NCBI RefSeq assembly: GCF_025787225.1
Contig: NZ_CP090958.1
Coordinates: 310,001-374,000, forward strand
Reading direction: 5' to 3'
Origin: Saxibacter everestensis
GTDB taxonomy: Bacteria > Actinomycetota > Actinomycetes > Actinomycetales > Brevibacteriaceae
Length of the DNA stretch: 64,000 nt
A model generated the notes under the pieces. It was not told the DNA's origin. It was given only the letters and a program-made list of their open reading frames with translations, and made no database searches. Position 1 is the stretch's first letter, and each line of letters opens with the position of its first letter. Of this stretch, positions 54,292 through 55,506 are shown one piece after another. Made by a program: the position numbers and the translations under genes.

Positions 54292-54340
54292 GTCCGGGTC
54301 TCGTAACGTCTTAGGCCGATTTGGCTTACGAGACCCGGAC
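54292..54340. repeat. REP-like palindromic element, copy 1
   Basis: GTCCGGGTCTCGTAA (54292-54306) and TTACGAGACCCGGAC (54326-54340) are perfect 15-bp inverted arms around a 19-base loop, followed by ATCGAG. The same arms occur at 55401-55506. It could also act as a terminator for the amine oxidase. Confidence 0.85.
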
Positions 54341-54368: not shown

Positions 54369-54400
54369 TTGACCTTGCCCCTGGGGGCAAGGATTAGGCT
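54369..54400 (+). promoter_or_regulatory. MerR-type promoter and operator of the fusion gene
   Basis: The -35 TTGACC (54369-54374) and -10 TAGGCT (54395-54400) are 20 bp apart, too long for normal activity. The spacer holds the palindrome TTGCCCC-TG-GGGGCAA (54375-54390). A long spacer with a central dyad is the hallmark of promoters twisted open by MerR proteins, so self-activation is likely. Confidence 0.85.
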
Positions 54401-54419
54401 CGATTCCGGGAGGTTGGCC

Positions 54420-55367
54420 ATGCGGATCGGTGAGTTGGCTCGGCGCGGCGGCGTGACTGTCAAGGCGGTGCGGTACTACGAGACATTGGGTCTGATGGTT
54501 CCGGATCGGCTGTCGAACGGTTACCGCGACTACGACGAGCGCGACGTTCGGGCAGTAGCCGAGATTCGCGAGTTGTCGCAGCTCGGGATTCGGCCGCGTC
54601 ACGCAGGCCCCTTCGTCGATTGCCTGGACGCAGGTCACGAGCACGGCGACGAGTGCCCGGCGTCCCTCGCGGCATTACGCGACAGCATCGCCGAGTTGGA
54701 TCGCACTATTGATTCGCTCGCCGCCCGACGTGCCGTGCTCGCGGCGCGTTTGTCCGAGGGAGCTTCACGCTCCTTTTCGAACCGAGAGGATTCTCAAGTG
54801 TCCGACTACACAACCCTTCCCGCCGGACTGCCGCAGCCGGCTGACGACGGCGCGGCGGATCACCTGCCTGGCTCGGCTGTTCCGCCGATAACATTGGCCA
54901 GCACGGCCGGCGGGGACGTCGATCTTGCCGCCCTCGGCCCCGGTCGATCGGTGGTTTACCTGTATCCGCTCACCGGCCGCCCGGGGGTCGATCTGCCCGC
55001 CGGCTGGGACGACATCCCGGGCGCACGCGGCTGCTCCACCGAGGCGTGTGACTTCCGCGACCACCATCAGGAGCTCGCCGACGCCGGCGTGCGCAACGTC
55101 TGGGGTTTGTCGAGCCAGGACGGCGACTATCAGCGGGAGGTGGCCGCGCGACTGGCGCTACCGTTCGAGATGCTCTCCGACGAGGGGTTCGAGCTTGCTG
55201 ACGCGTTGGGCCTGCCGACATTCGCCGCACCGGGACACGAACGCCTGTACGCCAGGCTGACGCTGGTGATCACGGATGGCGTCATCGAGCACGCCTTCTA
55301 TCCGATATTTCCGCCGAACACGCACGCACAGCAGGTTCTCGACTGGGTCCGGTCCCACCCGGAATAG
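54420..55367 (+). CDS. MerR regulator fused to PrxQ/BCP-type peroxiredoxin
   Basis: 315 residues in one uninterrupted frame. Residues 1-110 are a MerR protein: RIGELARRGGVTVKAVRYYETLGL, then PFVDCLDAGHEHGDEC with Cys68 and Cys79. Residues 127-315 are a peroxiredoxin: RSVVYLYPLTGRPG, then RGCSTEACDFRDHHQEL with Cys205 and Cys210 spaced as in PrxQ (Cx4C). A GTG at codon 127 with GAGAGG upstream could also give free peroxiredoxin. GGGAGG precedes ATG 54420. It may sense and destroy peroxide in one chain, or result from loss of a stop between two genes. Confidence 0.88.
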   Translation: MRIGELARRGGVTVKAVRYYETLGLMVPDRLSNGYRDYDERDVRAVAEIRELSQLGIRPRHAGPFVDCLDAGHEHGDECPASLAALRDSIAELDRTIDSLAARRAVLAARLSEGASRSFSNREDSQVSDYTTLPAGLPQPADDGAADHLPGSAVPPITLASTAGGDVDLAALGPGRSVVYLYPLTGRPGVDLPAGWDDIPGARGCSTEACDFRDHHQELADAGVRNVWGLSSQDGDYQREVAARLALPFEMLSDEGFELADALGLPTFAAPGHERLYARLTLVITDGVIEHAFYPIFPPNTHAQQVLDWVRSHPE

Positions 55368-55400: not shown

Positions 55401-55506
55401 GTCCGGGTCTCGTAAGGTTCTGCCCCGCAGCCCACGCCGACTGCGCCCGAGGTCCGCGTCTCGTAAGGTTTCAGTGCGATTTACCTTACGGAACCCGGAC
55501 ATCGAG
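55401..55506. repeat. REP-like palindromic element, copy 2 (compound)
   Basis: GTCCGGGTCTCGTAAGG (55401-55417), GTCCGCGTCTCGTAAGG (55452-55468) and the inverted CCTTACGGAACCCGGAC (55484-55500), followed by ATCGAG, repeat the arms of copy 1 with few changes. It fills the gap between the fusion gene and the next, convergent gene. Confidence 0.8.

Follow-up and report, generated by a model that had tools for sequence, protein, structure and literature searches.

A single open reading frame of Saxibacter everestensis was found to encode a MerR-type regulator fused to a peroxiredoxin. The gene lies in the 64,000-nucleotide stretch of DNA that was analysed (contig NZ_CP090958.1, positions 310,001 to 374,000; referred to as the window, to which all unprefixed coordinates refer). 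The fusion is a real and conserved combination of known parts, a description of which was not found in the open-licence PubMed Central literature; among the titles listed there none named a MerR-peroxiredoxin fusion, which is weak evidence because subscription journals fall outside the scope of that literature. The promoter, the cysteine residues and a second in-frame start codon suggest that this is, with fair probability, an autoregulated and redox-responsive gene with two products. The coordinates of the features concerned are listed in Table 1.

Table 1. Features of the MerR-peroxiredoxin fusion gene and its surroundings (window coordinates).
Feature	Coordinates	Strand	Basis or remark
49-bp inverted repeat	54292..54340	.	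between upstream amine oxidase gene and promoter
-35 hexamer TTGACC	54369..54374	+	TTGAC in 60/60 distinct fusions
Predicted operator in 20-bp spacer	54373..54392	+	perfect 9-bp arms CCTTGCCCC / GGGGCAAGG, 2-bp centre
-10 hexamer TAGGCT	54395..54400	+	20 bp from -35; equal spacing in 60/60 distinct fusions
Ribosome-binding site GGGAGG, full-length product	54408..54413	+	sequence
MerR-peroxiredoxin fusion gene	54420..55367	+	315 aa; Pfam and comparison with relatives
MerR DNA-binding domain and dimerisation helix (residues 1-117)	54420..54770	+	Pfam; model block pLDDT 88-98 through residue 110
Cys68 codon (MerR part)	54621..54623	+	invariant, 52/52 aligned fusions
Cys79 codon (MerR part, start of dimerisation helix)	54654..54656	+	invariant, 52/52; helix 80-117 in model
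Internal ribosome-binding-like site GAGAGG	54784..54789	+	4-nt match to anti-SD, weak
Internal GTG start, free peroxiredoxin (predicted residues 127-315, 189 aa)	54798..54800	+	junction start in 46/60 fusions
Peroxiredoxin domain (residues 147-315)	54858..55364	+	Pfam, model, fold comparison
Cys205 codon, presumed peroxidatic (GARGC)	55032..55034	+	89/89 loci
Cys210 codon, presumed resolving (Cys-x4-Cys)	55047..55049	+	88/89 loci, 60/60 fused

The frame (54420-55367) extends from an ATG start to a TAG stop with no internal stop codons, and the 315-residue chain consists, in order, of a MerR part (residues 1-117), a linker and a peroxiredoxin fold (residues 147-315). Both halves were recognised by Pfam; residues 1-60 matched MerR_1 (E = 1.9e-14, 53.9 bits against a cut-off of 21.6) and residues 150-302 matched Redoxin (E = 6e-14, 52.5 bits against a cut-off of 26.6). 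The AhpC-TSA profile, at 46.9 bits against a cut-off of 26, also placed the gene product in the peroxiredoxin superfamily. The only cysteines in the fusion are residues 68, 79, 205 and 210.

An AlphaFold2 model of the fusion, built with an alignment of 52 fusions, had a mean pLDDT of 89.5 and a pTM of 0.60. There was a long helix (residues 80-117) in the MerR part, a low-confidence linker with its minimum at residues 120-125, and a peroxiredoxin fold that reached the C-terminus and contained a less certain block around Cys205 (residues 201-210, pLDDT 62). The model is no guide to how the two domains are arranged relative to each other. Fold comparison with solved structures aligned the peroxiredoxin half with Xylella PrxQ (3ixr) over 153 residues (Z = 19.0, rmsd 2.5); the list obtained for the model was filled by peroxiredoxins and contained no MerR rows. 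In a profile search (44 sequences) no solved structure matched both halves, each match covering one half.

The first-pass annotation of this DNA had proposed a fusion in one frame, to be refuted by a missed stop codon or frameshift in the junction or by relatives that all had two separate genes. Neither was observed, because the MerR and peroxiredoxin parts were joined in one open frame at 61 of the 90 loci compared, a set biased towards fusions in that its 80 loci from named genomes were the best 80 of at least 576 encoding a relative, ranked by likeness to the Saxibacter gene. The other 29 loci had no nearby MerR match. The 61 fused loci represented 60 distinct fusions (L084, a duplicate of L013, was dropped from counts of distinct fusions) in 25 genus-level groups, with hosts that were actinobacterial except for one Chloroflexi bin; hosts among the loci compared included Streptomyces, Mycolicibacterium, Leucobacter, Arthrobacter, Nocardia and Actinomadura. 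An assembly or frameshift artefact that joined two genes was considered and can be dismissed almost completely, since no points in its favour were found and the in-frame fusion recurred at these 61 loci, in genomes of an evenly drawn class sample and in six plasmid records.

The fusion is rare in its class, being present in 8 of the 394 genomes of the class sample (own genome included). Among 99 genomes of relatives (own genome counted), the full-length fusion was present in six (Saxibacter, G009, G028, G053, G058 and G003; that in G058 is interrupted by the contig end) and the same peroxiredoxin without MerR in four (G029, G002, G063 and G097). Six of 72,556 plasmid records, all six from Streptomyces, contained a match that covered 80% or more of the query. 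The names on these plasmid proteins describe one half only: three were called redoxin family protein and three MerR family transcriptional regulator.

Upstream of the gene there was a promoter of the MerR family type, with a spacer within the 19-20 bp range and a dyad between the -35 and -10 hexamers. The 20-bp spacer claimed for it previously was verified by direct reading (an automated choice gave 17-bp spacing for the Saxibacter promoter) and by the identical spacing in all 60 distinct fusions. All 60 distinct fusions compared had the pattern TTGAC-N21-TA, which corresponds to a 20-bp spacer, no more than 120 bp ahead of the start of MerR; the pattern was found upstream of none of the 29 peroxiredoxin-only genes when 203 to 700 bp were searched, the fusions serving as matched control. 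Counted on both strands, the 1.4 million bases that these loci comprise contained the pattern 65 times, so about 0.006 would be expected per 120 bp. The promoter thus accompanies the MerR half, and an association of this kind is as expected if the gene were autoregulated.

The dyad reported in the first-pass annotation was present; its extent was not 54375-54390 but slightly wider, with perfect arms CCTTGCCCC at 54373-54381 and GGGGCAAGG at 54384-54392. Dyads at the other fused loci varied in quality. When the Saxibacter genome was searched with the operator, there was a site with no mismatches at the fusion gene alone and no second place with up to two mismatches, as would be seen for local autoregulation. 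A wider regulon in this genome was rejected; at up to three mismatches there were eight places compared to three in the reversed control. The seven operator-like places other than that of the fusion gene all had three mismatches, and one of them has the same palindrome ahead of another MerR gene. This palindrome of the operator kind (CCTTGCCC..GGGCAAGG, G000:C1:3990322-3990349) was located upstream of the MerR gene of locus L125 (2066-2803), and cross-regulation with that gene is possible.

Six residues were invariant in the 52 aligned fusions: Cys68, Asp77, Cys79, Cys205, Cys210 and Arg279 (L084, L087, L099, L104 and some further loci were left out of fusion alignment A3). The Cys68/Cys79 pair claimed for the MerR half was therefore both present and invariant. 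The same annotation had stated that MerR proteins with this cysteine pattern are often encoded beside thioredoxin-fold genes, and the loci inspected agreed with this. Profile search of the class sample identified MerR-only relatives in many genomes, and 29 further loci from that search were inspected; 27 were merR-thioredoxin loci and the other two, L150 and L175, held a decayed copy that is described below. The MerR-only loci with Cys-x10-Cys had a same-strand downstream thioredoxin-like gene in 27 of 27 cases inspected, and all ten of these downstream genes that were tested matched Pfam Thioredoxin (E = 4e-23 or better). Two thioredoxin sequence patterns recognised 25 and 26 of the 27; neither of them picked up L148, which shows WAPWCPSCH.

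These gene pairs (L148, L149, L151-L174 and L176) were spread over many actinobacterial genomes. The downstream start codon overlapped the merR stop by four bases in 16 of the 27, and 11 of the 27 had the fusion-type promoter by a strict pattern. Among the titles listed from the open-licence PubMed Central literature there was no paper on MerR-thioredoxin gene pairs, which is again weak evidence. Another MerR-only set, composed of more distant MerR proteins, was without Cys-x10-Cys by pattern (the pair in L024 is wider-spaced), and a search for the thioredoxin pattern near this set gave a single doubtful place (L020). In Nocardia alba a thioredoxin-like frame (L075:4880-5300) overlaps the end of the fusion gene by four bases, an arrangement of a merR-prx fusion and trx in one operon; among the 61 fused loci, L075 alone had a thioredoxin-like motif in its flanks.

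Because the thioredoxin-linked relatives have the same pair, the redox switch of the fusion would most likely be the cysteine pair of its MerR half. The loop between the two cysteines contained His73 in 36, His75 in 47 and Asp77 in all 54 of the fusions counted (54 of 60, as the pattern missed six), compared to His75 in none and Asp77 in 17 of the 27 MerR proteins of the thioredoxin type. His75 and Asp77 are thus characteristic of the fused proteins, and this suggests that the sensor is tuned to the partner it is fused with. This difference counts against an otherwise plausible reading, rated somewhat below probable, in which the MerR pair by itself detects disulfide or electrophile stress, as it presumably does in the merR-thioredoxin pairs, and the peroxiredoxin is an output enzyme only, so that the fusion has no signalling role. 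Such an arrangement would be in keeping with the presence of the pair at the 27 inspected MerR-thioredoxin loci, where the partner is not a peroxiredoxin, and with a linker that was of low confidence in the model and variable in length and sequence.

The stretch C-L-x-x-G-H-x-H-x-D-x-C also holds many possible ligands, and Cys68, His73/His75, Asp77 and Cys79 could form a metal site in a metal-responsive MerR protein with a peroxiredoxin output. In the MerR/CadR metal site the N-terminal cysteine also stands where the dimerisation helix begins, and the solved structures nearest in sequence to the MerR half include CueR (E = 2.8e-17) and CadR (E = 1.2e-13). However, a C-terminal metal-binding loop was not seen in the model, where the dimerisation helix passes into the linker, neither histidine was invariant, and the MerR-only kin adjoin thioredoxin genes. 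A metal site was judged quite improbable.

In the peroxiredoxin half, the intact Cys-x4-Cys site described earlier was conserved (88 of 89 loci); the PrxQ type assigned to it was not upheld. The canonical P-x3-[TS]-x2-C motif was absent, with Ala three residues before the peroxidatic cysteine (Cp-3) in 89 of 89 loci, and there was an insert before the active site, around TGxPxxxLPxGWDxIPGARGC. The canonical PrxQ genes of the same genome, L001 and L002, are without this insert and encode Thr at Cp-3. Curated models scored below cut-off (NF006960, 50.5 bits against 140; NF053650, 41 against 260). Canonical PrxQ identity was ruled out by the active-site motif and these cut-offs; on its sequence, this half is a divergent peroxiredoxin subfamily. 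It shares the peroxiredoxin fold, Cys-x4-Cys and the conserved Arg with PrxQ/BCP peroxiredoxins and differs from them in the insert and in Ala for Thr/Ser at Cp-3. The fold, the pair of cysteines and the conserved Arg make peroxiredoxin activity likely; since the Thr/Ser three residues before the peroxidatic cysteine is missing, peroxidase activity is not to be assumed.

An in-frame start codon was present at the junction in 46 of the 60 distinct fusions compared (ATG 35, GTG 8, TTG 3) and in 19 of the 25 genus-level groups; the sequences are related, so these counts are not independent events and are inflated by kinship. Exactly at position -6 there were 29 ATG, 7 GTG and 3 TTG codons, with other codons in the remaining 16 of 55 anchored genes. 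The other 14 of the 60 had no recognisable internal start (nine without a start codon at -8 to -4 and five without the anchor motif), and this start is therefore dispensable in some lineages. A ribosome-site match of at least 4, 5 and 6 nt preceded the junction start in 44, 29 and 22 of the 46 fusions, respectively; as a control, 675 start-like codons elsewhere in the same reading frames gave 204, 46 and 8. When the upstream codons were recoded with synonyms in 2000 trials, the averages were 36.8, 21.6 and 9.4 ± 1.9, and the observed values were reached in 0, 11 and 0 trials, respectively. Ribosome sites in excess of synonymous recoding indicate that they are held at the nucleotide level, beyond a by-product of the Lys/Glu-rich linker. 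In L012, a close peroxiredoxin-only relative, the first start codon falls exactly at the junction position.

The internal GTG at 54798 with GAGAGG upstream, pointed out in the first-pass annotation, thus belongs to a start codon and ribosome site conserved beyond the amino-acid constraint, with which L012 agrees. The Saxibacter site itself is among the weak ones, as a GTG with a 4-nt match, and its GAGAGG lies inside a small predicted hairpin that was not beyond chance (z = -0.85). This weakness, and the 14 fusions in which the internal start is missing, would be compatible with an internal start that is left over from a once separate prx gene, yields no product and leaves the fusion as sole product. 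Such a relic is rather unlikely given the excess of ribosome sites of at least 6 nt over recoding, which extends over many genera while the linker diverges, and given that ATG, GTG and TTG interchange at one codon. With a second start signal kept at the junction, one self-controlled gene can probably make both the sensor-regulator and the free enzyme.

In the mechanism proposed here, a MerR dimer would bind its own promoter at the dyad inside the 20-bp spacer and, with the Cys68/Cys79 pair oxidised, would activate that promoter. The full-length chain would be the regulator, the C-terminal peroxiredoxin would be an active thiol peroxidase, and free peroxiredoxin would be made from the in-frame start at 54798 on the same mRNA. 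A rise in peroxide would lead to more sensor and more scavenger, and a fall would turn the gene off. If this is true, a regulator, a peroxiredoxin on the same chain and a free enzyme from one mRNA would make up a compact sensor-plus-response unit.

A more tentative extension, which is on the unlikely side, is that the tethered peroxiredoxin meets peroxide first and hands the oxidation on, as a disulfide, to the Cys68/Cys79 pair in the MerR part of the same chain, as a single-chain relay. The switched-on gene would then yield both the relay and a free scavenger from the internal start. Bacterial peroxide sensing is credited mainly to directly reacting proteins such as OxyR and PerR. In the eukaryotic redox relays Orp1-Yap1 and Prx2-STAT3, a transcription factor receives its oxidation from a thiol peroxidase, which is a possible mechanism here; unlike these separate proteins, the Saxibacter components are in one bacterial chain, in which a relay is a possibility. 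The MerR-peroxiredoxin fusion would be a natural test bed for a peroxiredoxin-to-transcription-factor relay in bacteria and, if the relay is true, a transcription factor with a built-in peroxidase sensor.

The closest parallel in layout is TipA (TipAL/TipAS) of Streptomyces lividans, for which PMC7762955 describes a MerR part and a C-terminal effector domain in one autoregulated gene, with two start codons that give two products, the shorter of which consists of the effector domain only. The fusion gene is alike in its MerR part, C-terminal effector and second in-frame start, which as a sequence feature is able to give the C-terminal domain alone, the short product being predicted. The effectors differ, being a peroxiredoxin here and the antibiotic-binding TipAS domain in TipA; Pfam found Redoxin and no TipAS domain in the Saxibacter fusion, which is thus outside the TipA family. 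The two-product layout of tipA, with the short product predicted, also exists with a different effector.

SoxR and NmlR, likewise of the MerR type, regulate responses to oxidative or electrophile stress, and the C-terminal loop of SoxR carries a [2Fe-2S] cluster (PMC9909328). The fusion scored far below the curated cut-offs for both, and SoxR identity was rejected (TIGR01950, 34.8 bits against 116.9), the MerR half having Cys68 and Cys79 only, too few for an Fe-S cluster. Neither SoxR nor NmlR is known to carry an enzyme domain. The merR-thioredoxin pairs resemble the fusion in MerR subfamily, cysteine pair, thioredoxin-fold redox partner and promoter type; unlike the fusion, they comprise two genes, have thioredoxin as the partner, are without His75 and do not have a fixed Asp77. 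The fusion connects a family of such pairs to itself.

On the peroxiredoxin tree, from which L084, L011 and L087 were left out, fused and separate states were interleaved and families mixed, with weak supports. Parsimony gave 16 changes of the fusion state, at least two of them forced by starred branches. A single origin of the fusion was not supported by this interleaving and the 16 changes on a weakly supported tree; the patchy occurrence and mixed tree are in keeping with horizontal transfer and with gain or loss on more than one occasion. At L150 and L175, which are the same place, a decayed merR-prx copy was found in which two frames meet as ATGA; with several frame breaks there, the copy may or may not go back to an unfused pair. 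The reading in which the peroxiredoxin is an output enzyme only would have the single chain arise when an overlapping merR-prx pair lost the stop codon that separated its genes, an origin that is likewise plausible while short of probable. Both the interleaved states and the two frames of the decayed copy lend it support, but it predicts unfused merR-prx pairs, and there was a MerR match at E = 1e-4 near the gene at none of the 29 peroxiredoxin-only loci. One of these, L076, still had a 33-residue MerR remnant in frame before the junction ATG. The simplest history that we infer is that a merR-thioredoxin operon gained a peroxiredoxin, or swapped its thioredoxin for one, before fusion took place, and that the coupling start codon was kept afterwards.

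At the peroxiredoxin-only locus L102 of Nonomuraea jabiensis, the upstream sequence was like the fused linker (SRVSPATAGEDLMTDHTNLP), which suggests that the MerR half was lost and the internal start kept; no MerR remnant was detected there within the E-value limit. In Catellatospora coxensis (L099:4001-6190) and C. vulcania (L104:4001-6196), MerR and Redoxin were joined to a complete enolase in a frame of 730 and 732 aa, respectively. The enolase part matched Enolase_N and Enolase_C (E below 1e-55). This triple fusion had a MerR-type promoter as in the other fusions and no recognised internal start at the peroxiredoxin junction.

The 49-bp inverted repeat upstream of the promoter is probably a flanking element outside the mechanism. 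Palindromic sequences were present on both sides of the fusion gene (54292-54340, 55401-55416 and 55452-55500), with GTCCGGGTCTCGTAAG-like arms 33 bases apart, and have the appearance of a small element of the REP or hairpin kind. With two mismatches allowed, the Saxibacter genome had 14 arm-like sites, compared to one in the reversed control, and ten of these sites form five such pairs.
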